In this document: positions 26,449 to 35,846 of the stretch, piece after piece
Position numbering within the stretch: the stretch's first letter is position 1
How the letters are laid out: every line of letters begins with the position of its first letter
From: a virus
Length of the DNA: 35,846 nt
Reading direction: 5' to 3' (one strand)
IMG/VR virus record: IMGVR_UViG_3300034062_002743
Location: 1 to 35,846 of that record
Notes under the pieces: model-generated
The model's database searches: none
What the model saw: only the letters and a program-made list of their open reading frames with translations
Told to the model about the DNA's origin: nothing
Made by a program: the position numbers and the translations under genes

Positions 26449-27717
26449 ATGGCAGATAGGCGTGGCGTTGGGCTGTTGGATGCGTACAGGCAATACGTGG
26501 GCGACCCGTTTGCATCAATGGTCGGTGGCGCTGCGCGTGGCTACCTTGGGTTGGATAAGCCAACCTATGCCAACGAGGAGGCGTATCGGACTGCGCAGGC
26601 CATTGGCAACATGCCCGGCTTCGGCGCGCCCGCTGGAATCTTCAAGGCTGCGGCCAATGCGCCGGATGCTTTAGTGGCTATTGGCGGGCTGCTGGGCAAA
26701 GCTGCCGTGCCAAAAATGAGCGCTCAAGAGGCGCGAGCAGCTGGATATTGGCATCCCATTGGCTTGGGTAAGAAATTAGAGAAGCCATATCAAGATATAT
26801 CGTTTGCTACCGAAACAATTAAAAACCTGCCGGCCAGGAAAAACATTTCGCTTGAAGACCTACAGGGGCAATACATTGTGCCCGCAGTTGGTGACAGAAC
26901 CGCAGCCGGGAAGTTGCTGACTGAGGTTGAGGGCGTCAAGTTTAACAACCCAGTAGAGCTAGAGGGCGGGCCGGATTTTATGCTGACGCATGGGGCCAAG
27001 GGTGGGCCTGATTCAACAATATGGGCCAGCGGGCAATCTATTGTGAGCGCACTTAGGAACCGAGCAGTTCAAGCGGAATCTATGGGTGGCAACGCAAACT
27101 TGATGTATGTGCCAATGGGGTACAACTCGCTCAATTTCAGCACTATGCCTACTGACGCTGCGCTTGAAATGATTAAAAGCGGGAAGATTACAAAAAAAGC
27201 CAAAAAAGAGTTTGATAACTCAGTGCGTGCGTTTCGCCCTGAATTTGCTGGGATTGACTCTCCGCAGGCAATTGAACAATTACGCGCTAACGGAGAGCTT
27301 CGACATGCGTTTTTGGATCGCATGCAACTTGATCAATTCAGAAATGCAGGCTTTCCTGATATCACTGCAATCAGAAAGTCAATTATGGAGCCTGCTCTTG
27401 AAAATGTTCCGCTCTATCACGGTGGCTACTCCGTTGGCAAAATTGATACATCTTTCCCAATTAACAAGTTGCCAAAGTTGCCGCACAAGACTTATCCCGC
27501 GCAATTGCATGGCACTGTGATTGGCGGGATGGATATCCCGGTACCGCACACAATGTTGTGGCAAGACTTTTTTAACGAACGGCGAGCCAGAGGAATGCCC
27601 GTGGAGGGCGACCGCATGGCGTTTGAAAGATCCAAGCCACTGCAATTAGTAAATCAAGGGCTTCTAGACCGAGTCATGCCATACGTCGAAGCGGCTAGGC
27701 GTTCGGGTCGACCTTAA
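26449..27717 (+). CDS. Mosaic accessory protein resembling phage polyvalent-protein domains
   Basis: The product is 422 residues from an ATG directly after the previous stop, with GGAGG 6 bases upstream. Residues 1-95 (YRQYVGDPFASMVGGAARGY and an Ala/Gly-rich stretch) have backbone GC and read like a generic N-terminal module. From about residue 100 the DNA becomes AT-richer. The protein there contains YIVPAVGDRTAAGKLLTEV, ELEGGPDFMLTH and IWASGQSIVSALRNRA, which I recall from large polyvalent phage proteins injected into hosts. The last 100 residues (LYHGGYSVGKIDTSFP, HTMLWQDFFNERRARG) form a further segment. No catalytic motif is certain. An injected or effector-like role is inference. Confidence 0.6.
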   Translation: MADRRGVGLLDAYRQYVGDPFASMVGGAARGYLGLDKPTYANEEAYRTAQAIGNMPGFGAPAGIFKAAANAPDALVAIGGLLGKAAVPKMSAQEARAAGYWHPIGLGKKLEKPYQDISFATETIKNLPARKNISLEDLQGQYIVPAVGDRTAAGKLLTEVEGVKFNNPVELEGGPDFMLTHGAKGGPDSTIWASGQSIVSALRNRAVQAESMGGNANLMYVPMGYNSLNFSTMPTDAALEMIKSGKITKKAKKEFDNSVRAFRPEFAGIDSPQAIEQLRANGELRHAFLDRMQLDQFRNAGFPDITAIRKSIMEPALENVPLYHGGYSVGKIDTSFPINKLPKLPHKTYPAQLHGTVIGGMDIPVPHTMLWQDFFNERRARGMPVEGDRMAFERSKPLQLVNQGLLDRVMPYVEAARRSGRP

Positions 27718-27868
27718 TTTCAAGGGCTTCTTGGAGCAGCTTGTAGACGACGTACAGACATCGTTCCGTCCGCTCTGTGTAAGGGTGCGGCCCGCCTTCC
27801 GGCTGCTCGGCGTCTACCGCTAGATGAATTGCATCAACGATTGAATGGTATCTAGCAACTTTGTCCAT
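27695..27868 (-). CDS. Small conserved-looking phage protein, minus strand
   Basis: This 57-residue protein begins MDKVARYHSIVDAIHLAVDA and continues with an acidic, helical second half ending IKVDPNA. AGGA lies 7 bases before the ATG. It runs against the late operon and overlaps the last 23 bp of the preceding plus-strand gene. Composition is balanced and helical with no low-complexity sequence, and the ribosome site is good, so I consider it real. No family is recognised. It may belong to the small-gene cluster that extends to 28.9 kb. Confidence 0.65.
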   Translation of the reverse strand: MDKVARYHSIVDAIHLAVDAEQPEGGPHPYTERTERCLYVVYKLLQEALEIKVDPNA

Positions 27869-27927
27869 GATCAATCCTATTTAAGCAGAGGCTGATTAGT
27901 AATGAGTGTTGTCAATATTTGCACCAA

Positions 27928-28071
27928 ATGAGCGCCGCCCTGATCGCCGCTGTCGGCGTCGTCTACGCCGTTATCGCCACCGACCTGTACCGCTCCGGCC
28001 AGACCGGCCTAGCACTGGCGTTTGCCGGGTACGCGCTGGCCAATGTTGGGCTGTGGATGGAGGCGCGCTAA
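27928..28071 (+). CDS. Small two-pass membrane protein
   Basis: The product is 47 residues and begins MSAALIAAVGVVYAVIATDL. Two hydrophobic segments (about 3-20 and 26-43) are separated by YRSGQTG and followed by MEAR. This pattern recurs, as I remember it, as a tiny phage gene in Burkholderiales. It is divergent from the small minus-strand gene at 27868, with 59 bp between them. A nine-codon ORF (ATG 27902) overlaps its start and may be a leader. Its role is unknown; a lysis or superinfection function is conceivable. Confidence 0.65.
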   Translation: MSAALIAAVGVVYAVIATDLYRSGQTGLALAFAGYALANVGLWMEAR

Positions 28072-28089
28072 AACGGCGCAGGCGGCATA

Positions 28090-28305
28090 TCACTCGGGTA
28101 GCGCTTCTGCCGCTTCTGCTTCACCGGCTTGCGCATCCGGCCGAACGGCCAATTCGGATTGTCTTTGAACATTGGCGGCAAACTCCTTGATGGCTGGATG
28201 ATGCTCTGGATAGGCCCAGACTTCCAAGGGGCGCAGACCCTGCTCGCGCAGCCGCGCACGGTGGGCGGCTACGCGGCTGGCTGATGGGCGGGTGTCTTTC
28301 TTCAT
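28090..28305 (-). CDS. DUF3018 / MazE-like antitoxin-type protein
   Basis: The protein has 71 residues. The segment SRVAAHRARLREQGLRPLEV (10-29) followed by W and HPAIKEFAANVQRQ matches the pattern S-R-V-x2-H-R-x2-L-R-x2-G-L-R-P-V-x-I-W of DUF3018, described as antitoxin MazE-like. The ATG overlaps the stop of the upstream gene (ATGA). No toxin of the MazF type follows: downstream lies only the convergent membrane-peptide gene. It may be an orphan antitoxin, a DNA-binding regulator, or a guard against a host toxin. Confidence 0.6.
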   Translation of the reverse strand: MKKDTRPSASRVAAHRARLREQGLRPLEVWAYPEHHPAIKEFAANVQRQSELAVRPDAQAGEAEAAEALPE

Positions 28306-28628
28306 TCAGTAGTCTTGGCAATGGCTGCGCGAGCGATGTCCGATATGCTTTTTCTCAAACTTGTGGCCTGTTCTGCAGTCAGTTTTTCGCTTTTGCATTT
28401 CCCTGGGCCGGTTGTGTTGTATTCGGCTAACGCTGCAATTTGAAGCAAAGCAGCAAGTAAATCGGGCGCGGCGGCGATTAGCCTGGAGTCGGCGCTGCAT
28501 TGAATGCCGGTTGCAACTTCGCAGTGAAAGGCAACAATCCGATGCTGCGACTCAAACGCATCGCCGTCGGCGTCGTGGCCGGGATTATAGGTTTGGGTGG
28601 CCCAAGGGGCGGGTGTGTGTGCGTTCAT
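28302..28628 (-). CDS. Phage protein of the HTPAPW...SADSRLIAAAPDLL type
   Basis: The product is 108 residues from ATG 28628; a TTG at 28649 would add seven. It begins NAHTPAPWATQ and contains CSADSRLIAAAPDLLAALLQ, then a helical end with SISDIARAAIAKTTE. This arrangement recurs in many phage early proteins of unknown function: a short beta N-terminus, an SADSRLIAAAP hinge and a helical tail. GGGA lies 9 bases before the ATG. Second gene of the small leftward operon that starts at 28906. Confidence 0.7.
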   Translation of the reverse strand: MNAHTPAPWATQTYNPGHDADGDAFESQHRIVAFHCEVATGIQCSADSRLIAAAPDLLAALLQIAALAEYNTTGPGKCKSEKLTAEQATSLRKSISDIARAAIAKTTE

Positions 28629-28678
28629 GTTCAGATTTCCCAGGTTCAAGTTAGCCCGGCCGGAGCCGGGCGGGTTGG

Positions 28679-28906
28679 TTAGTAATTTGATTCGCGCGCT
28701 GCAGCTTTGGATTCGGCCAGGTAGATGCTGGCTTCCTGTTTGGCGTGGAATTCAATGTGCGCCATGGCGGTCAAATCGGCGTATTTGCTCGACCAATAAT
28801 TCGCGTCAGCCGCCCATTCCTCGAAGTACGAATCGGCCAGACCGCGAATACCGTGCCGCGCAAAAATAATTGCGACTTCTGCGGCGGTGATCTTGAGTTT
28901 TCCCAT
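28679..28906 (-). CDS. Small helical phage protein, first gene of an accessory leftward operon
   Basis: The protein has 75 residues and begins MGKLKITAAEVAIIFARHGI. AGGAGAG sits 7 bases before the ATG, so the longer frame (from 28945) is not used. The protein is helical and alanine-rich, with an aromatic middle (YFEEWAADANYW) and a basic end. It lies about 45 bp downstream of a good promoter (28952-28980) whose spacer is a perfect palindrome. No family is recognised. Confidence 0.65.
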   Translation of the reverse strand: MGKLKITAAEVAIIFARHGIRGLADSYFEEWAADANYWSSKYADLTAMAHIEFHAKQEASIYLAESKAAARESNY

Positions 28907-28951
28907 GTTTCTCTCCTGGTTGGCGCGCTGCGTCGTGCAGCGCATGAGTCA

Positions 28952-28980
28952 ATATTAGATGGTTACTAGTAACCAGTCAA
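28952..28980 (-). promoter_or_regulatory. Leftward promoter with a palindromic operator in its spacer
   Basis: Read on the minus strand: TTGACT (28980-28975), 17-bp spacer, TAATAT (28957-28952). The spacer holds the perfect 14-bp palindrome GGTTACTAGTAACC (28961-28974). GTTAC/GTAAC half-sites also occur in the repressor-Cro region and in the promoter of the leftward early operon, so the phage repressor is the natural candidate to bind here. It drives the gene at 28906 and those after it. Confidence 0.7.
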
Positions 28981-29015
28981 GGGGGGTAGGCAAAAAAGTT
29001 TTCGGGCGCTCAAGC

Positions 29016-29233
29016 CTGTCTAATACTCGCAAAAACGCCTCGGTTTTCACCGAGTTTCGCTACAGCCAAGCTTGCCTCGTTTCTTAGACACCGCGAGCGC
29101 TAGATCGGCTCTGTGTGCGGCCTAGCGGGCGATTTTGTAGCGAATGACCGAGTACCTTACCAAGACGTAGATCGGCTATCCATGCGGGTCTTTAGGCGTC
29201 GTTGTCTAACAAATCCAAAAGCTGTCTAATACT
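29016..29233. other. attP-like region with integrase-arm-type repeats
   Basis: CTGTCTAATACT occurs twice (29016-29027, 29222-29233). TGTCTAA also occurs at 29203-29209, and its inverse TTAGACA at 29084-29090. TAGATCGGCT is repeated (29101-29110, 29168-29177). TTCGCTACA (29056-29064) has its inverse TGTAGCGAA at 29136-29144. A small hairpin CTCGGT-TTTC-ACCGAG lies at 29039-29054. This non-coding stretch lies directly downstream of the integrase gene, where tyrosine-integrase phages keep attP. The crossover core cannot be named without a host attB. Confidence 0.6.
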
Positions 29234-29234
29234 T

Positions 29235-30194
29235 TCAGCGTTTTGCGGTCTTGCTGGGGCCGATGACGACGGGCACAACCTTGTCCCGCAGGTAACGCCT
29301 GGTCACTTTGGCGTCCGCATGGCCAAGCAGTTTTTGCGCATCAATGCCCTGGGCGTCGGCGTCGGTTCCGCTCATCGCTCGCAGATCGTGCAGGTTGGCG
29401 TCCAGCACTCCAGCCTTCTCGCAAGCCACTGTCCACTGCTTGTGAATCATGTGATAGGCCGGCGGCTTTGCGCCCAACAAATAGATGTGCACTACATTCC
29501 GGTGCAGCGCCCTGGCGTCGGCCACCGCATTGCGAAGCTCGGGCGTCCAAGACAGCAGCAGCCTGCTTTTCGTCTTTTGCTGCTGAACAAAAATCCCTTC
29601 CTCGCTGATGTCGTCGCGTCCAATTTTCAGCACATCACCGATGCGCTGCCCGGTCGCGTAACACAAGTCCATCACCACGCGCAGCAACGGCTTAGCTTGC
29701 TCGCGTATAGCGTCAAACTCGGGTTGAGTAATTCGCCTGGTGCGCGCCTCTTGCTTAATCCGTTTGATTGCAATACAGGGGTTTGATTCGACAAGCTGCT
29801 CTTCCAGTCCGTAGTTGAAAATCAACCTTAAGACGGTAATCAGCCTGTTCGCCACCGCCGGCGTGGCTACAAACGCCCTGCGCATTTGCGCTACATCCCG
29901 CGGCGTCACTTGGTGTGGAGCGAAGTCTGCAAAGATGTCTTGCAGCTTGACTGCGCAAAAAGTGTATTGCTTGATCGTTTCCTTGGCCTTGCCGCGCAAA
30001 ATAGTCGGCAGCGCCTCTTGAATCAATGCGGGCATGCCGCCTAGCTTTTGCTGCTGCAGGCGTGCGTACTCTGCAAGCGACTGATCGAGGTCAGTGCCTA
30101 GCCGCAGCCACTTGCCTTTCTTAACGTACCAATACGCCCCGTGTTTCAGGTAGACGCAGGCGGGGAGATGGCGCTGCAGTTTTCTCGGGCGCAT
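29235..30194 (-). CDS. Tyrosine-recombinase integrase
   Basis: The protein has 319 residues. An N-terminal basic arm-binding part with WYVKKGKWLRLG (22-33) is followed by a SAM-like core-binding domain (about 60-150) and the catalytic domain with Arg184 (TGQR), a lysine in KTKS (207-209), His269 and Arg272 (LHDLR), His292 (LLGH) and Tyr301 (RRYL). All essential residues are present. It integrates the phage at a host attB. It is the last gene of the leftward operon, overlapping the DUF4224 gene by 74 bp and ending next to the repeat-rich attP-like stretch. Confidence 0.95.
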   Translation of the reverse strand: MRPRKLQRHLPACVYLKHGAYWYVKKGKWLRLGTDLDQSLAEYARLQQQKLGGMPALIQEALPTILRGKAKETIKQYTFCAVKLQDIFADFAPHQVTPRDVAQMRRAFVATPAVANRLITVLRLIFNYGLEEQLVESNPCIAIKRIKQEARTRRITQPEFDAIREQAKPLLRVVMDLCYATGQRIGDVLKIGRDDISEEGIFVQQQKTKSRLLLSWTPELRNAVADARALHRNVVHIYLLGAKPPAYHMIHKQWTVACEKAGVLDANLHDLRAMSGTDADAQGIDAQKLLGHADAKVTRRYLRDKVVPVVIGPSKTAKR

Positions 30195-30336
30195 GTTCTA
30201 CATCCCTCCTAAAGACGACTATTGATCCGTCTGTGCGCCTGCGAAACGGCACGCCCAGGGCACGCAATTCTCTAGCCTGTGCGCTGTTCATCTTGCGCCC
30301 CGTTAGCGTTTGCAACTCTTCCATGCTCAGAATCAT
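30121..30336 (-). CDS. DUF4224-type protein beside the integrase (excisionase candidate)
   Basis: The product is 71 residues from ATG 30336. It begins MILSMEELQTLTGRKMNSAQ and continues RELRALGVPFRRRTDGSIVV. This fits the DUF4224 pattern (ILS-x-EEL-x-x-LTG...Q...L...G-x-P-F...DG-x-x-V), a small family commonly encoded next to phage integrases. A GGGGAG ribosome site precedes it, and it overlaps the previous stop (ATGA). Position suggests a recombination-directionality role, which remains an inference. It overlaps the integrase start by 74 bp. Confidence 0.75.
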   Translation of the reverse strand: MILSMEELQTLTGRKMNSAQARELRALGVPFRRRTDGSIVVFRRDVEHAPEKTAAPSPRLRLPETRGVLVR

Positions 30337-30527
30337 CGCGCGCTCCCCGGGCGCTTCGGCAAAGGCGACCACGCCACGAAGTTGCTGTCGTCCAGCCAGT
30401 CGCCAATAACTGCGACGCCGCCATCGGTGAGAATGAGCAGCTTCACGCCGCGCGGTGGCCGCTCTTGCTCGGGATCGCGCCAGTACGCTTCTCCAGACTT
30501 GGCTGGCATCAACGTGTTCTCGCTCAC
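30333..30527 (-). CDS. Small phage protein with a G-V-K-L-L-I-L-T beta motif
   Basis: GTG 30527 overlaps the upstream stop (GTGA), with AGGA about 9 bases earlier; a later ATG is at 30509. The product is 64 residues: SENTLMPAKSGEAYWRDP, then RGVKLLILTDGGVAVIGDW, then FVAWSPLPKRP. It is a compact beta-rich protein with several conserved-looking aromatics. I recall similar tiny proteins in Burkholderiales phages, of unknown function. Confidence 0.6.
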   Translation of the reverse strand: MSENTLMPAKSGEAYWRDPEQERPPRGVKLLILTDGGVAVIGDWLDDSNFVAWSPLPKRPGSAR

Positions 30528-30697
30528 CGGGCTTGATCCTGCCCACTTTGGGCATGCCAGCCGCGAAGCTTGGCTATCTCTGCGCACGCGCATGCGTAGT
30601 GCGCTGGCCCCCACGACCAGCAGCCGTCTGCGTGCGTAAGTAATTTAGGCGAATTATTCTGCTCGGATAATTTCTGCGCGTCGTCAGGCTTTTCCAT
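30524..30697 (-). CDS. Small phage protein with clustered Cys and His
   Basis: A 57-residue protein starts at ATG 30697, with 14 bp of overlap with the previous gene. The core is HADGCWSWGPAHYACACAEI (22-41), with three cysteines and two histidines, followed by a basic end. A small metal site is possible. Its stop overlaps the next GTG. The motif H-x-D-G-C-W-x-W-G-P-x-H-Y recurs in small phage proteins, to my recollection, without known function. Confidence 0.65.
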   Translation of the reverse strand: MEKPDDAQKLSEQNNSPKLLTHADGCWSWGPAHYACACAEIAKLRGWHAQSGQDQAR

Positions 30698-30866
30698 CTA
30701 GGTGCCTCACCAATTCCTGCAGGTACAGATTCGCCATCGCAACGTCCTGCCGATGCAGCCAGATCGCCATCGCGCCAAGCAGGAACAGCGCGCGCGGGTT
30801 CTTGCCGCTAAGGGCTGCAAGAACGGCGTCAATGCACAGCTCCTTGTCTTTATTCTTCGTTTTCAC
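30684..30866 (-). CDS. Small helical phage protein
   Basis: GTG 30866 overlaps the upstream stop (GTGA). The product is 60 residues, helical throughout, with LCIDAVLAALSGKNPRALFL followed by LHRQDVAMANLYLQELVRHL. It may form a small helical bundle. The hydrophobic middle (ALFLLGAMAIWL) could also be a short membrane segment. No family is recognised. Overlap on both sides supports it. Confidence 0.6.
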   Translation of the reverse strand: MKTKNKDKELCIDAVLAALSGKNPRALFLLGAMAIWLHRQDVAMANLYLQELVRHLDGKA

Positions 30867-31354
30867 GCTGCCAGCACCGGGTTGCTCAACCACGCTGACG
30901 CAACGTCCGGCCTGCGCGTGTTGACTGCGTTTTGAACTTGGTTCGATTCCCGCCAACCAGGAGTGATGTAGACGTAGGACTTGTGCGGCGTGCCGTGCTC
31001 GTTGAGTGGGTGATACGCATCCAACTCACCGGCCTTTAGCGCAAGCCGCAACGCGGTGTGGATGGTTGCCGGCGGCCCGCCAATGTGCTGGTGCAACTCT
31101 CGGTAAGAGAGCGGCCCATGCTTGTTAATTAGCTCTGAAATTCGCTCGATAACGGTCGGACAAGCTGGTCGCTCCACCCCGGCGTTGCAGTGCGTTGCCA
31201 AGGCTTCCAGCAGGTCACGCAGCGGTCTATGCGCAGCGCGCGGGTAACGCTGTTCGATGTCGGCTATGCGCTCCAAGAGGCGCTCGGAATTGTGTGTGAC
31301 TGTCATGCCTGCCATGCTTGCCTCAGAGTCGGTTAACGCCATGCGTAGCTCCAT
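30863..31354 (-). CDS. Winged-helix DNA-binding protein
   Basis: The 163-residue protein starts at the ATG directly after the previous stop (TGAATG). Residues about 65-125 hold a winged helix: TVIERISELINKHGPLSYRE, then HIGGPPATIHTALRLALKAG as the recognition helix region, then a wing with GTPHKSYVYIT. The N-terminal third is helical and the C-terminus short and polar. Likely a transcription or recombination accessory factor of the leftward operon. The exact family is unknown. Confidence 0.65.
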   Translation of the reverse strand: MELRMALTDSEASMAGMTVTHNSERLLERIADIEQRYPRAAHRPLRDLLEALATHCNAGVERPACPTVIERISELINKHGPLSYRELHQHIGGPPATIHTALRLALKAGELDAYHPLNEHGTPHKSYVYITPGWRESNQVQNAVNTRRPDVASAWLSNPVLAA

Positions 31355-31840
31355 TCACACCGTCTCCGCAGTCCGCATGCGCTCTCTGTGCTCCTTGTGC
31401 GTCTGTGCGTGGTGCGTACTGCACAACCATGAAACCGCAAGAGGAGCGCTATAGTCAGGGTGGTGCGCCTGGGCCTCGTTGCCGCACACAAAACACGGTT
31501 GCCTATCAAGCCGTCCGTCTCGTAATGCATTGCTGACTGCAGTGGCCGCTTTTTTTCTGATTGCGTTTGCAACCCCCCAATTCTTTACGGAAATTGCGTG
31601 CGAAATGCGATATTCGTCTGTCATGCGGTAGGCCGCCCTAGAATTAACTCGGTGCGGCAAGTTGCTTCGTATCCTGTCAAAAGCTCGGTAGTACTCAATC
31701 TTTGCGTTACGATTTGCGATTACCGCAGCCTTCGTGCATTCCTTGCATTTGTTCAATCGCCCGTCTTTCATTTTGCTGTGCGGATAAAATTCATCCGTAG
31801 GCTTTTCAAAAAGACAGACAAAGCATTGCTTAGAAGACAT
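31355..31840 (-). CDS. HNH-type endonuclease with N-terminal zinc module
   Basis: The protein has 161 residues from ATG 31840, with GGAAAG 8 bases upstream. Residues 6-35 form a Cys4 zinc module: CFVC (6-9) and CKEC (32-35), with the segment EKPTDEFYPHSKMKDGRLNK between. The C-terminal HNH-like core has CFVC (116-119), HH (126-127), then LCSTHH (His143, His144) and His148. A role in recombination, restriction or packaging is possible. It resembles its operon neighbour at 32141-32677 in overall design but is not obviously a recent duplicate. DNA here is somewhat AT-richer than the flanking genes. Confidence 0.7.
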   Translation of the reverse strand: MSSKQCFVCLFEKPTDEFYPHSKMKDGRLNKCKECTKAAVIANRNAKIEYYRAFDRIRSNLPHRVNSRAAYRMTDEYRISHAISVKNWGVANAIRKKAATAVSNALRDGRLDRQPCFVCGNEAQAHHPDYSAPLAVSWLCSTHHAQTHKEHRERMRTAETV

Positions 31841-32144
31841 ACGAATACTTTCCGCGATGAGGGTTGGCAAACGGAATATCTGAGTCCGTGTCATCAAAGC
31901 CGCTGCTGACTCGCTTGGGTGCAGGTTTTTGCGCGGGGGCGGGTGCCGCAGCCGGGGCGTCTTTGCGCTTTGCTGACAGCGAGTAGAACGATCCGCTGCC
32001 GTCGTTCTTTTGCCGCTGCCAGCCATCGAGCCAATACTCAACGCCCTCGATGTTGATCTGGCCCTTGATGTCGGGGTGCTTCTCGGTTTCCTTGCGCAGA
32101 TTCTTGGAGATGATTCCGCGATTGGTGTCGTCGTACTGAGTCAT
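31830..32144 (-). CDS. Putative single-strand DNA-binding or recombination accessory protein
   Basis: The product is 104 residues. N-terminal half: [20 protein letters not shown] followed by a beta-rich stretch ([28 protein letters not shown]) compatible with a small OB-like fold. Then an Ala/Pro linker and an acidic DDTDSDIPF end, reminiscent of the SSB acidic tail. Together with Erf and the exonuclease it would complete a recombination module. The start overlaps the previous stop (ATGA). The call is moderate because the beta fold is read by eye only. Confidence 0.5.
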
Positions 32145-32677
32145 GTTGGTTCCTTGTTGATGAGGTTGGTAACTGTTTTCACGGCGTATATGCCGTGCTT
32201 AATCCGTTTGCCGTGACGCAGACCGCTTGATCCTCGACCTTTGCTCACCATGTCTTGAACGTTGTCGTCCGGAGTGCCAAGAAACAGATGGTCTGGGTTG
32301 ACGCACCCAGGGTTATCGCAGCGATGGCAAACAAACAGCCCATCAGGAATTGGGCCTCTGAAAATTTGCCATGCAACGCGGTGCGCCATTTGCTTTTTGC
32401 CAAACGCGTTGATCGTTCCGTAGCCAAAAGAATGGTGTTCTCGGTTCCAAAGCCAGCAACCGGACATCGGCTCCGGCTGATATTGGGCTTCGAAGCGAGT
32501 CAGAATGTCCTTGCCTGTAAGTTTCCGGATCGGGTCGCTCCCGCGTATTTTTAGATACGCCGCGTTGATGACGCGCACGCAATCCCGGCAGTACACACAA
32601 AGGCCGTCGCGCGTAGAAACGTTCTTGTTGAACTGGTCAAGCGGCTTTCCGGTGGCGCATTTTGGGCAACGCTTCAT
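32141..32677 (-). CDS. HNH endonuclease with N-terminal zinc module
   Basis: The protein has 178 residues. Residues 4-33 are a zinc module with CPKC (4-7), then CVYCRDC (27-33). The body has [15 protein letters not shown], then AHRVAW (His99, Arg100) and the HNH signature [18 protein letters not shown] (117-134), typical of phage HNH (homing-type) nucleases. It probably cuts or nicks DNA. It may be a mobile free-standing endonuclease or a functional part of the recombination operon. Overlaps on both sides (ATGA) suggest long residence rather than recent insertion. Confidence 0.85.
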
Positions 32678-33297
32678 GCAACAACATCCGTTTGCGTCAA
32701 CTGGTCAAACATTTTTTGCACTTCCGCTAGAAACTTGCGGGCGTGTTCTTCGATCTCTTCCACCTCTTCCCGCTTTGGCGTCCACTCGGCAATGTGCAGT
32801 TGCCTGCGCGGATCGCGCACACGCGGGTCATAGCTGACGAACACCGCATGCTCGCGGCCAGTGCAAGCGAGTTGGGCCAAGATTTGCGGCTTGTGCTGAT
32901 CGGGCACCCCGCCTGCAAGCAGCCACGACACATGCGTCGTCGTCTGCGGGCACTTAAACTCAATCACGCCGCCAGGCAGGAACCCGTCTGGAGTTGCAGC
33001 GAAAAAATCAATCTCTGGGTGATCAATCGTCCTGCACGGCGTAATCAGCCGACCTGTTGCAAGTTCAAATGCCGCTTTAGCTGCCGGCTCTTGATCTAGC
33101 CCCCATTGCATAAATGCGTTGACGTGGTGCGGCACTGCGTCTCCGGTAATTCGCTCGGCGAGAATTTCGTACTTCAGTGCTCGACGCTTTGCGCCCTCAG
33201 CGCCTTTGCTTGTCATGTCCAGCGCTTGATGCATGCGGCTGGCCGTGAGCTTGCCGCAGCGAGCCGACAGGAACGCAGACTTCTCGGAGTCGTTCAC
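32674..33297 (-). CDS. YqaJ / lambda-type recombination exonuclease
   Basis: The product is 207 residues from GTG 33297, which overlaps the preceding stop. An N-terminal CGKLTASRM segment is followed by WGLDQE (Glu70), ATPDGFL (Asp104) and VIEFKCP (Glu113, Lys115), the active-site set of the lambda exonuclease/YqaJ family. It degrades one strand of linear duplex DNA to give single-strand overhangs for the annealing protein encoded two genes upstream. The C-terminus is a charged helix. Used in replication-coupled recombination and concatemer formation. Confidence 0.93.
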
Positions 33298-33512
33298 AGC
33301 CGCCCATCCAGTTCGTCCAAGGCATCCTCTGCACGGCACATGGCGCGGCCTAAGTCTTCGTCAGACGCCGGCTTGCACTGGTGCGCCATCACATAGTCGG
33401 CATCTCTGCGCCGCACTACATCGACAAGGTTGCGCAGCGCGCCAATGGCATCGCTACGGTAGACATCGCCACGCCTGCGCATCGGTTTGTTGGGATAGGT
33501 TTGCGTGTTCAT
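33294..33512 (-). CDS. Hypothetical small protein between Erf and the exonuclease
   Basis: The product is 72 residues, with a basic start (MNTQTYPNKPMRRRG) and helical body including RSDAIGALRNLVDVVRRRDA and [16 protein letters not shown]. There is no recognised family. It overlaps the stop of the annealing gene (ATGA) and the start of the exonuclease (GTGA), so it is an integral part of the recombination operon and may be an accessory of these enzymes. Confidence 0.65.
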   Translation of the reverse strand: MNTQTYPNKPMRRRGDVYRSDAIGALRNLVDVVRRRDADYVMAHQCKPASDEDLGRAMCRAEDALDELDGRL

Positions 33513-34129
33513 GCTGGCACCTTCTCTGCGGCTGATTTCAATGCGGCCTGGTGCTGCGTCCAGACGCTGGTTTTCGTGGGTGAGTTGGGGATGGCCTTGA
33601 ACCGCGCCTGCAACGCTTCCAGGCCGTCCACAGCCGCTTCGCGCAGGCTGTCCAAGATGAGCGCCGCTTCCTGCTCGTTGGCGCGCTGTGCAGGCTTAGG
33701 CGCGATTTCGTGCGTGTGCAAGTCCGCGTCGTTGTCACCTTCTGTCGGGATGCAAAACGCCTGCATTGCTGCGTACTTGTAAGCCGCGCTCATGGCCTTG
33801 TTGGTGGCCTTGTCTGCCGAATCCATCGCTTCGCCGTATGTCTTAACGGTGTGTTTGCTGCCATCCTCTGCAGACACGAAGTCGAACTCGACTTCAACGG
33901 TGACGTAAAACAGCGGCGAACCTTTTGCCGTCTGGCGCTCTATGCACTCGCGGCTCAGGGTTCGCGGCAGCACAACCAGTCCGTTTCGAGCCAGCACTGG
34001 GCCAAGCGCGTTGTACACATCGTCAATGCCTCGGAACGAATAGCCCTGTGCCTGATTCTTGCGGGCTTTTGCAATGCCGGATTCGGCCATCGTTGCCGCG
34101 ACGGATGCAATTGCTTGATAGACCTTCAC
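33509..34129 (-). CDS. erf: Erf-family single-strand annealing protein
   Basis: The protein has 206 residues from GTG 34129, which overlaps the upstream stop and has GGGAG 7 bases before it. The ERF core runs from YSFRGIDDVYNALGP (30-44) through VVLPRTLSRE, FYVTVEVEFDFVSAEDGS and YGEAMDSADKATNKAMSAAY (98-117), all typical of the family. The C-terminal 70 residues are a variable acidic linker and a helical end. It anneals complementary single strands produced by the exonuclease and helps circularise or concatenate phage DNA. Confidence 0.92.
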   Translation of the reverse strand: MKVYQAIASVAATMAESGIAKARKNQAQGYSFRGIDDVYNALGPVLARNGLVVLPRTLSRECIERQTAKGSPLFYVTVEVEFDFVSAEDGSKHTVKTYGEAMDSADKATNKAMSAAYKYAAMQAFCIPTEGDNDADLHTHEIAPKPAQRANEQEAALILDSLREAAVDGLEALQARFKAIPNSPTKTSVWTQHQAALKSAAEKVPA

Positions 34130-34293
34130 AGCATTACTCCCCAAAGAGTCACAAGAACCAGAGCCAGCACTGCCCACAGAGCCGCGCCCCAGATCATTGC
34201 GTTGACGATGCCCTCGGCGGCATCCAGCTCGCGCCGATGTTGCTGGCAGTCGCGCCAGCCTTGGCCGTATCGCGTCGAATGCGAGTTGCTCAT
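34126..34293 (-). CDS. Small single-pass membrane protein
   Basis: The product is 55 residues from ATG 34293, with AAGGAGCGG just upstream. The N-terminus is hydrophilic and helical (residues 1-28, with W-R-D-C and QQHRRELDAAEG) and residues 31-53 form a strong membrane segment (AMIWGAALWAVLALVLVTLW). It overlaps the previous stop (ATGA) and the next start (GTGA). No family is recognised. Early membrane peptides in lambdoid phages can affect superinfection or cell division, but that is only an analogy. Confidence 0.65.
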   Translation of the reverse strand: MSNSHSTRYGQGWRDCQQHRRELDAAEGIVNAMIWGAALWAVLALVLVTLWGVML

Positions 34294-34442
34294 TTCCGCT
34301 CCTTCGTCAGCTTTTGCACCGTCTTCCATGTGCGCTGGATGTCCGTGTGTTTAAGGTTCACTGGGTAACCCTTGCGGCGCTGGTCGCACCAGCCCAGCAC
34401 GGGCGCACGGCCCGCCTGCTCAATCATTTGGCGTGCAGTCAT
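34290..34442 (-). CDS. Small basic phage protein
   Basis: The product is 50 residues: MTARQMIEQAGRAPVLGWCD, then a basic tail with WKTVQKLTKERK. Likely nucleic-acid-binding from its charge (over ten Lys or Arg). ATGA overlaps at both ends. It was found by reading the minus strand between two longer frames. No family is recognised. Confidence 0.6.
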   Translation of the reverse strand: MTARQMIEQAGRAPVLGWCDQRRKGYPVNLKHTDIQRTWKTVQKLTKERK

Positions 34443-34651
34443 GCCGCCTCCTTGCGCAACACGACTTGCTGCGCAGACAGGTCAATGTCCGGCGTCGAGT
34501 CAATCGGGCAGCAGATGTCGACAGTCATGCGGTGACCGTCGTTGCAGACAACGGAGACCTTCAGCACACGGAAAGGCGCACAGACGCCTCCGTGGATGTC
34601 CTGTGTGCTGATGGTCACAGGCTCGCTGGTGTGCAGAGTCAGAGTGCTCAT
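34439..34651 (-). CDS. Hypothetical beta-rich early protein
   Basis: The product is 70 residues from ATG 34651 (the longer frame from 34828 is a shadow of the neighbour). It starts MSTLTLHTSEPVTISTQDIH and is beta-strand-rich with three cysteines (GVCAP, VVCND, DICCP). Stop and start overlap the neighbours by ATGA. No family is recognised. Confidence 0.65.
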   Translation of the reverse strand: MSTLTLHTSEPVTISTQDIHGGVCAPFRVLKVSVVCNDGHRMTVDICCPIDSTPDIDLSAQQVVLRKEAA

Positions 34652-34956
34652 TGCCAGCCCTCCGTTGCATCGGACATGTCTTCGCCGAGTGCGTGCAGGC
34701 GCTTCAGTTGCCAAGCGCGACGGGTAGCCCAGGCGTTGCTGAACTCGTGGTACCAGGCGGCCAGAGTGCCGGCCTGGACTGCGCGCACCAGTTGGGCGGG
34801 CGTGCAGACTTCCTCTTCCATGAGCCACTGCGCCAGGTCTTCCTGTGCGCCAACCGTGTAGCCGGCGGCAAACAGTGCCGGAACGGGATCGTTGGACGGC
34901 AATGCGTCCCAGACTTCATCGTAAGCGCGTCGGTGTGCTGCGTTCAGATCAAACAT
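34648..34956 (-). CDS. First gene of the leftward early operon, unknown function
   Basis: The product is 102 residues from ATG 34956, with GGAGGGAACG upstream. It is helical, beginning FDLNAAHRRAYDEVWDALPS, then AQEDLAQWLMEEEVCTPAQL and an aromatic-rich WYHEFSNAWATRRAW. No family is recognised. As the promoter-proximal gene, the place of N and kil-type functions in lambdoid phages, it is a candidate for antitermination or host takeover, but no arginine-rich RNA-binding start is present. Confidence 0.65.
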   Translation of the reverse strand: MFDLNAAHRRAYDEVWDALPSNDPVPALFAAGYTVGAQEDLAQWLMEEEVCTPAQLVRAVQAGTLAAWYHEFSNAWATRRAWQLKRLHALGEDMSDATEGWQ

Positions 34957-34993
34957 CGTTCCCTCCATGCCGCGTTCAGTGCGGTGTGAGGGA

Positions 34994-35034
34994 ATAGTAA
35001 TCTGAAGTTACGTCGTACGCAAGCCCATGTTACG
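34994..35034 (-). promoter_or_regulatory. Leftward early promoter (pL-like) with operator half-sites
   Basis: Read on the minus strand: TTGCGT (35022-35017), 17-bp spacer, TACTAT (34999-34994), about 38 bp before the first leftward gene. GTTACG occurs at 35007-35012 inside the spacer and again at 35029-35034, two helical turns apart, matching the half-site of the repressor-Cro region. Repression by the phage repressor is inferred. Confidence 0.6.
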
Positions 35035-35036
35035 AA

Positions 35037-35432
35037 TTATTTTATTTCGGCCTGCTCTGACAGCTTTGTCAGGTACTCGCTGAAGGCGACGTAGTTCTTA
35101 GAAGTGGGCGGCGCAAGGAACTGCGCGGGCAAAGACTGCGATACCCGCTCGGCCAGGATCAGCGCCTCGAGCACATACAGCTTGAGACCTTCGGGCAGTT
35201 CATGGATGCGGCGCTCATAAACGCCTTCTGGTTGCCGGCCCAGCAAAAGCCAGTCTAAAGACGTGCCTGTTTCGCGGCAGAACGCAATCAGTTGCTCTGT
35301 GGCCGGGAAGTTGCGGCCTGATTCGTAGTGAGACACAGCGACCCTCGATACGCCCATCAAGGCAGCGACATCCTCCTGGGAATGGCCGGATGTCTTGCGA
35401 ACTTGCTTGAACCGCATACCGAAATCGCTCAT
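35037..35432 (-). CDS. Phage repressor (XRE family, CI-like, no peptidase domain)
   Basis: The protein has 131 residues from ATG 35432; a TTG at 35438 with GGGGAA at proper spacing is an alternative start. Residues 6-65 form an XRE-type domain with helices SQEDVAALMGV and SRVAVSHYESG, then a typical SLDWLLLG end. The C-terminal half is helical and contains no S24/LexA-like Ser-Lys protease. Induction would therefore need another route than RecA-stimulated cleavage. It is divergent from the Cro-like gene and is best read as the lysogeny repressor. Confidence 0.88.
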   Translation of the reverse strand: MSDFGMRFKQVRKTSGHSQEDVAALMGVSRVAVSHYESGRNFPATEQLIAFCRETGTSLDWLLLGRQPEGVYERRIHELPEGLKLYVLEALILAERVSQSLPAQFLAPPTSKNYVAFSEYLTKLSEQAEIK

Positions 35433-35438
35433 CCGCAA

Positions 35439-35512
35439 ATCGTATTCCCCTTGTTACCCGCGCGCGTAACTTGCGCTTGCTCATACAGGTAACACTGAGT
35501 TACGATACGGGC
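35439..35512. promoter_or_regulatory. Repressor-Cro intergenic operator/promoter region
   Basis: Two inverted repeats lie here: GTTACCCGCGCGCGTAAC (35453-35470, one mismatch) and GTAACACTGAGTTAC (35489-35503, perfect 5-bp arms). A weak rightward promoter may be TTGCTC (35477-35482), spacer 18, TACGAT (35501-35506), which would place transcription start near the Cro ATG at 35513 and imply a leaderless or very short leader. The -10 element overlaps the second repeat. Confidence 0.6.
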
Positions 35513-35728
35513 ATGAGCACAGTCATGCACGAATCAAGCCCAGAACTGGCGCTTCAGCGCGCCATCAAAAGCGCAGGCGGATATACCGCGCTGGCAAAAC
35601 TGGTTGGCGTCAGCCGCCCTGCGGTTGCGCGGTGGAGCCTATGCCCACCAATGCGCGTGCTGGCCGTCGAGGCCGCAACAGGCGTCCCGCGCCAGCAATT
35701 GCGTCCCGATCTGTACCCGGCTGAATAA
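35513..35728 (+). CDS. Cro-like/YdaS-type repressor
   Basis: The product is 71 residues from ATG 35513 (an ATG at 35525 is a second choice). ALQRAIKSAGGYTALAKLVG, then VSRPAVARWSLCPPMRVLAV forms a compact helix-turn-helix ending RQQLRPDLYP, a pattern typical of YdaS-like Cro proteins. It faces the repressor and would act on the shared operators to favour lytic growth. No strong ribosome site is seen, only ACGGG 3-4 bases before 35513. Confidence 0.82.
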   Translation: MSTVMHESSPELALQRAIKSAGGYTALAKLVGVSRPAVARWSLCPPMRVLAVEAATGVPRQQLRPDLYPAE

Positions 35729-35732
35729 CTGT

Positions 35733-35843
35733 ATGCATGTACAGCAGTCTGAACCACTGGTGGCTCATGAAATGAGCCTGCAGCCGGCCTACGTCGGTCG
35801 GTGCTGTGTCCCTAGCTCTTTGGTAGGGGGGGGGGGGCTGTAG
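35733..35843 (+). CDS. Short frame running into the G12 tract, probably incomplete
   Basis: ATG 35733 opens a 36-codon frame (HVQQSEPLVAHEMSLQPAYV, then a segment ending SSLVGGGGL) that stops just after the G tract. Its place after cro is where cII-type or replication genes start. Loss or gain of one G changes the ending, so the real frame cannot be judged. Low support. Confidence 0.25.
   Translation: MHVQQSEPLVAHEMSLQPAYVGRCCVPSSLVGGGGL
35826..35837 (+). repeat. G12 homopolymer at the window end
   Basis: Twelve consecutive G lie 9 bp before the window ends, in the context GGTA-G12-CTGTAGGCA. Long G tracts mutate by slippage and are poorly read by common sequencing methods, so this may be a phase-variable element or a reason for the sequence to end here. 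Confidence 0.75.
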
Positions 35844-35846
35844 GCA

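Follow-up and report, generated by a model that had tools for sequence, protein, structure and literature searches.

A putative palindromic operator in an accessory promoter of an uncultivated temperate phage and its probable regulator, a MazE-like protein of family PF11455

Introduction

The closest described systems are small operons with a repressor of their own promoter. In acr-aca operons, which contain known anti-CRISPR genes, control is exerted by the autorepressors Aca1-Aca10 (PMC9410906, PMC9410881, PMC8434428), every known one of which is matched by an HTH model (PMC9765179). Antitoxins such as MazE of the Escherichia coli MazEF system and MazE6 of Mycobacterium tuberculosis autoregulate via an operator in their own promoter, which for MazE6 is the -10 region TANNNT (PMC9477884). 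Other relatives are the PF11455/DUF3018 antitoxins of PemK/MazF operons, in which a toxin is present and the regulator is the first gene. Palindromic operators in promoters of temperate phages are typical of lambda-type CI/Cro control. Cluster K mycobacteriophages reportedly possess Start-associated sequences, a conserved element ahead of varying phage genes.

The DNA analysed here, referred to as the window, is a whole virus record of 35,846 bases. Its accessory operon most likely works like an acr-aca operon, to judge from its layout: a strong promoter with an inverted repeat inside the core promoter is followed by small variable genes and then by a small conserved gene for a putative DNA-binding protein, and the immunity repressor does not appear to be needed. 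It is called like acr-aca and not acr-aca because none of its genes is known to inhibit CRISPR-Cas, in contrast to the known anti-CRISPRs of acr-aca operons. The putative regulator also differs, as it belongs to the non-HTH family PF11455, whereas the Aca regulators are HTH proteins. With the PF11455 toxin-antitoxin operons it has in common the protein family and the upstream operator GTTAC-NN-GTAAC, but here no toxin is found, the regulator comes last, unrelated small phage genes are controlled, and the centre of the operator is TA, CG, CA or TG in the phages instead of AT. The likeness to MazE and MazE6 is one of proposed autoregulation through an operator in the protein's own promoter; operator and toxin partner are different, and the fold is modelled at modest confidence. 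The lambda-type systems resemble the locus in having a palindromic operator in a temperate-phage promoter, but here the site is single and its geometry differs from what is seen around the CI gene of the window itself. Finally, the Start-associated sequences are comparable with the 5' hairpin leader of the operon as a conserved element before varying genes and differ from it in sequence, host and copy number, the leader being present in essentially one strong copy per contig.

A conserved promoter with a palindrome in its spacer

The promoter lies on the minus strand at 28980-28952 (Table 1). The original prediction that TTGACT and TAATAT are separated by exactly 17 bp was correct, and the perfect palindrome reported in the spacer is present as well, although it is longer than stated, covering 16 bp (TGGTTACTAGTAACCA). 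The 17-nt spacer reads GGTTACTAGTAACCATC, and its 5' part, GGTTACTAGTAACC, is contained in the palindrome. By chance, a 16-bp perfect palindrome is expected about 0.75 times anywhere in 35.8 kb and with a probability of about 2e-4 within one given 17-nt spacer; for GTTACNNGTAAC the expectation over the whole window is 0.02 occurrences. The arrangement GTTAC-N2-GTAAC occurs only once in the whole window, at the accessory promoter.

A scan of the window for consensus promoters was at chance level (3 found versus 3.1 expected). The promoter is judged real because the spacing of -35, palindrome and -10 is conserved in other phage contigs, ahead of different genes, and not because of its scan score. 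Scans of IMG/VR identified the same -35 and palindrome in L006, L009 and L004/L016 and a version with one base changed in L022, in each case with the same leader next and then differing first genes. In nine aligned promoters TTGAC, GTTAC (spacer positions 2-6) and GTA.C (positions 9-13) are kept, while the central two bases vary between TA, TG, CA and CG; the -10 element is weak in some relatives (L009/G018). The core GTTAC-TA-GTAAC is kept in related phage promoters and also upstream of bacterial PF11455 genes. The earlier proposal of a repressor-type operator within the promoter of the accessory operon is supported.

No close match to the site at 28952-28980 was found among catalogued phages or plasmids. 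Exact 16-mer matches in L012-L015 and 12-mer matches in L007, L010 and L011 have no leader and lie in other sequence, and they were set aside as unrelated.

Table 1. Features of the accessory operon and its surroundings in the window
Feature	Position	Strand	Remarks
-35 element TTGACT	28975..28980	-	TTGAC identical in all nine phage promoters aligned
-10 element TAATAT	28952..28957	-	17-bp spacing from -35
Putative operator, 16-bp perfect palindrome TGGTTACTAGTAACCA	28960..28975		core GTTAC-TA-GTAAC at 28962-28973
5' mRNA leader CATGCGCTGC-ACGAC-GCAGCGC	28925..28946	-	starts at about the expected +1
Shine-Dalgarno AGGAG	28913..28917	-	sequence
Operon gene 1, 75 aa	28679..28906	-	no family
Operon gene 2, 108 aa	28302..28628	-	phrog_1273 (function not known)
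Operon gene 3, 71 aa (p71)	28090..28305	-	PF11455, MazE-like; proposed autoregulator
Tyrosine integrase	29235..30194	-	promoter directly downstream, as in several relatives
Immunity-region GTTAC/GTAAC words	34997..35503		other geometry than the operator; for comparison

Genes of the accessory operon

Three small genes follow the promoter, with a 4-nt overlap between the end of gene 2 and the start of gene 3. The first gene differs among the phages that have this promoter in common, and for gene 1 of the window nothing close was found in catalogued phages or plasmids. Comparisons of genes 1 and 2 with families, phrogs, NCBIfam and PDB sequences gave no informative relatives, and a PDB sequence search with all three operon proteins gave no useful match.

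The product of gene 3, p71, matches the PF11455 profile with 39.5 bits (cut-off 22, E 5.6e-10). This is its sole match in Pfam, where no HTH family was hit. A weak, sub-threshold NCBIfam match to 'biofilm formation regulator BacA' (E 8.6e-5) was also seen, and that model may include a PF11455-like N-terminal part. The AlphaFold monomer has two helices (pLDDT 72, pTM 0.37), and at this modest confidence no confident fold match in the PDB was obtained. No PemK/MazF toxin (PF02452) was detected in the window or in 16 related phage records (17 phages), and p71 is therefore regarded as a member of PF11455 by sequence and not as half of a toxin-antitoxin pair.

Some other reading frames lie nearby. 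A 47-aa membrane-protein-like frame (27930-28073, plus) is convergent with the operon, and a separate 57-aa gene (27695-27914, minus) is preceded by a TTGACA of its own and by CATTACTAATCAGC, which resembles a half-site. In L155 (9827-10381) and L182 (11298-11852), a frame that by eye resembles the sigma factor FliA runs convergently towards the last gene of the accessory operon; it possibly lies beyond a prophage boundary, in host DNA.

Association of the operator with PF11455 proteins in phages

Two sets of phages were collected by different routes. The first comprised 34 contigs picked by their shared 5' leader. A PF11455 protein above the cut-off was encoded in seven, all of them among the nine contigs with GTTACNNGTAAC in the spacer; the remaining two of these nine (G005 and G012) have diverged PF11455 homologues. 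None of the 25 leader contigs with other spacers has a PF11455 protein. This association gave a Fisher p of 2.5e-5 with a near copy removed and of 7e-8 when the diverged homologues were counted.

The second set was found by the PF11455 protein alone and yielded seven new informative loci. In three of them (L200, L203 and L204) the promoter contains the operator unchanged, in L203 and L204 without the hairpin leader, and in L195 and L196 the operator has one mismatch (GTTACTAGTAGC). In the other two, L201 and L202, the proteins are diverged and the promoters contain GTGAC-YR-GTCAC (GTGACNNGTCAC); the N-terminal segment of these proteins is changed from RVAA[HL]R to RKA[AK]ER. A regulator and its site would be expected to diverge together in this way, and the N-terminal helix (RVAAHR to RKAAER) is thus a candidate recognition element. 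The PF11455 gene is kept at the end of the operon, and the genes ahead of it vary.

Operators of this type were additionally noticed in L203, L204, L157 (3415) and L162 (17158), where they lie in second accessory promoters that lack the hairpin leader (TTGCgTTACCGGTAAC); some of these precede a conserved 59-aa gene.

The operator upstream of bacterial PF11455 genes

Bacterial loci were likewise selected by the protein: four plasmid genes, which all adjoin PemK/MazF toxins, and 19 genes from an even draw of 299 Pseudomonadota genomes. A perfect GTTACATGTAAC was found within 200 nt upstream in 11 of the 23 loci and a site with one mismatch in a further 5/23, counts that do not represent independent events, as the loci share ancestry. 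The other seven had weak matches or none. Control windows from the same loci contained no site with 0 or 1 mismatch (0/215), and when any 5-N2-5 inverted repeat was searched for openly, GTTAC was the sole recurrent half-site. Presence upstream of protein-selected genes and absence from control windows suggest that GTTAC-NN-GTAAC belongs to the PF11455 family in general. This would assign an operator to a family for which none, neither GTTACATGTAAC nor any other, was found in the literature searched on the subject.

Proposed regulation and alternative explanations

Taken with the observed association, these data indicate that the palindrome is very probably the operator of p71, the MazE-like last gene product of the operon that it controls. 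The operon is most likely self-regulated by this orphan protein and independent of CI immunity. The strong sigma-70-type promoter would fire without p71, for example just after DNA entry, and give a transcript with a stable hairpin at its 5' end, in which the genes for small, fast-changing proteins precede that for p71. Accumulating p71, presumably as a dimer, would bind GTTAC-TA-GTAAC between -35 and -10, exclude RNA polymerase and so turn the promoter off. Such negative autoregulation would run independently of CI and Cro and predicts that expression surges early in infection and then declines, and that it is low in the lysogen, instead of an operon that is off until induction. We infer p71 binding, its dimeric state, repression, timing and the roles of the small proteins from sequence comparisons.

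The original prediction had placed the operon in the immunity regulon, with the palindrome as a site for the 131-aa immunity repressor or Cro. A CI site would indeed look like this, specific in sequence and placed in the spacer of a promoter, and GTTAC/GTAAC words do crowd the repressor-Cro and pL-like regions, as had been noted: six were counted at 35007-35503, in 520 nt around the repressor gene and the pL-like region, versus 0.46 expected. However, the CI/Cro control regions have other geometries than the operator, since the words there are arranged as GTTAC-N8-GTAAC, as everted GTAAC-N5-GTTAC or singly, and GTTAC-N2-GTAAC is absent at the window's CI, Cro and pL. Among eight records examined, the window showed a cluster of these words at its repressor gene; in the majority of the other records they were most densely packed at or near the accessory promoter. 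With the CI protein of the window, tblastn detected homologues in only two other operator-bearing phages, G005 (33%) and G016 (24%), and none in G001, G002, G007, G012 and G018, which all have the operator. G007 is circular (96-nt terminal repeat), so that the missing CI homologue is not simply a missing piece. In G005 and G016 the operator is confined to accessory promoters; it is present twice in G005 and G012, with both copies in neighbouring accessory promoters. Moreover, the operator tracks the PF11455 gene of the operon across phages and into bacterial toxin-antitoxin operons. On geometry and distribution the palindrome was therefore rejected as a CI operator, and membership in the immunity regulon appears improbable. 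The words in the immunity region are possibly true CI/Cro operators, and, given their presence there, CI could share half-site specificity with the regulator of the operon or cross-bind its operator. A palindrome in a temperate-phage promoter is not necessarily a site for the immunity repressor, and a natural misreading is corrected.

A different view of p71 would be that it acts mainly as an antitoxin against a MazF-type toxin of the host or of a rival, in a decayed or anti-toxin-antitoxin module that has inherited promoter binding. The family name MazE-like, the PemK/MazF toxins beside the plasmid PF11455 genes and the fact that autoregulation is standard for antitoxins (MazE6, PMC9477884) fit this idea, which is also compatible with assigning the operator to p71. 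It is nevertheless rather unlikely, because PemK/MazF was present in 0/17 phages and because conservation of the last gene, with change in the earlier ones, fits selection for regulation. For the former reason p71 is counted as an orphan antitoxin-type protein used as a regulator, and phages appear to have made a PF11455 toxin-antitoxin regulator into a stand-alone operon autorepressor. That a host transcription factor binds the site, with the link to PF11455 as a by-product of the module's shared ancestry, has nothing specific in its favour and is hardly credible, as the operator accompanies PF11455 genes in numerous Pseudomonadota that are not related, lies in promoters that are not related either, and is diverged where the protein is diverged. 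Autorepression by p71 is the preferred explanation.

The 5' hairpin leader and the genes behind it

Directly after the -10 element, the transcript is predicted to begin with the leader CATGCGCTGC-NNNNN-GCRGCGC, which is followed by the Shine-Dalgarno sequence. In the window it contains a 7-bp hairpin (stem 28937-28943 with 28925-28931). Besides the window, the leader was found in L006, L009, L016-L023, L025, L043-L135, L195, L196, L200 and L202. Over 30 contigs of uncultivated phages share it although their promoters and the genes behind it are unrelated, and each scanned record has essentially one strong copy. Since scans with a free loop gave many chance matches in GC-rich DNA, hits were filtered by a following Shine-Dalgarno sequence and start codon. 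The hairpin likely forms in RNA, because in three base pairs both partners show compensatory changes and none of the shuffles attained as high a covariation score (a small set of 12 sequences, some chosen for divergence). A role in mRNA stability or translation may be supposed. No relevant Rfam match was obtained in 27600-35846 even at E 5. Matches in INPHARED phages were weak, partial and mostly in coding genes, with no convincing copy, and a scan of bacterial genomes for the leader pattern gave almost solely chance matches in coding DNA.

A common operator in all phages with the leader was considered and rejected, as their spacers carry different inverted repeats. The leader follows, for example, CTCACgtttGTGAG, TATCGGccgcCCGATA or CTACCGtatcCGGTAG, and contigs with the leader and other spacer repeats are G014 (L181), G017 (L175), G021 (L188), G013 (L165), G010 (L167) and L059. 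By our own reading of the proteins, it seems to open the main early operon in G014, G017 and G021.

Operator and leader together may serve as a DNA handle for collecting fast-evolving accessory genes, among them candidate anti-defence proteins. Tentatively, and with somewhat more doubt than confidence, the operons could represent a counter-defence (anti-CRISPR-like) class of uncultivated temperate phages with a conserved leader and interchangeable operator-regulator pairs, of which one would be a domesticated MazE-like antitoxin and the first non-HTH 'Aca'. If this were true, a search with operator and leader could uncover further anti-defence genes that are new.

A short hairpin was also noticed elsewhere in the window: the pL-like leader (34962-34990, minus) likewise opens with one, CCGC-ACTGAAC-GCGG, just before the ribosome-binding site.
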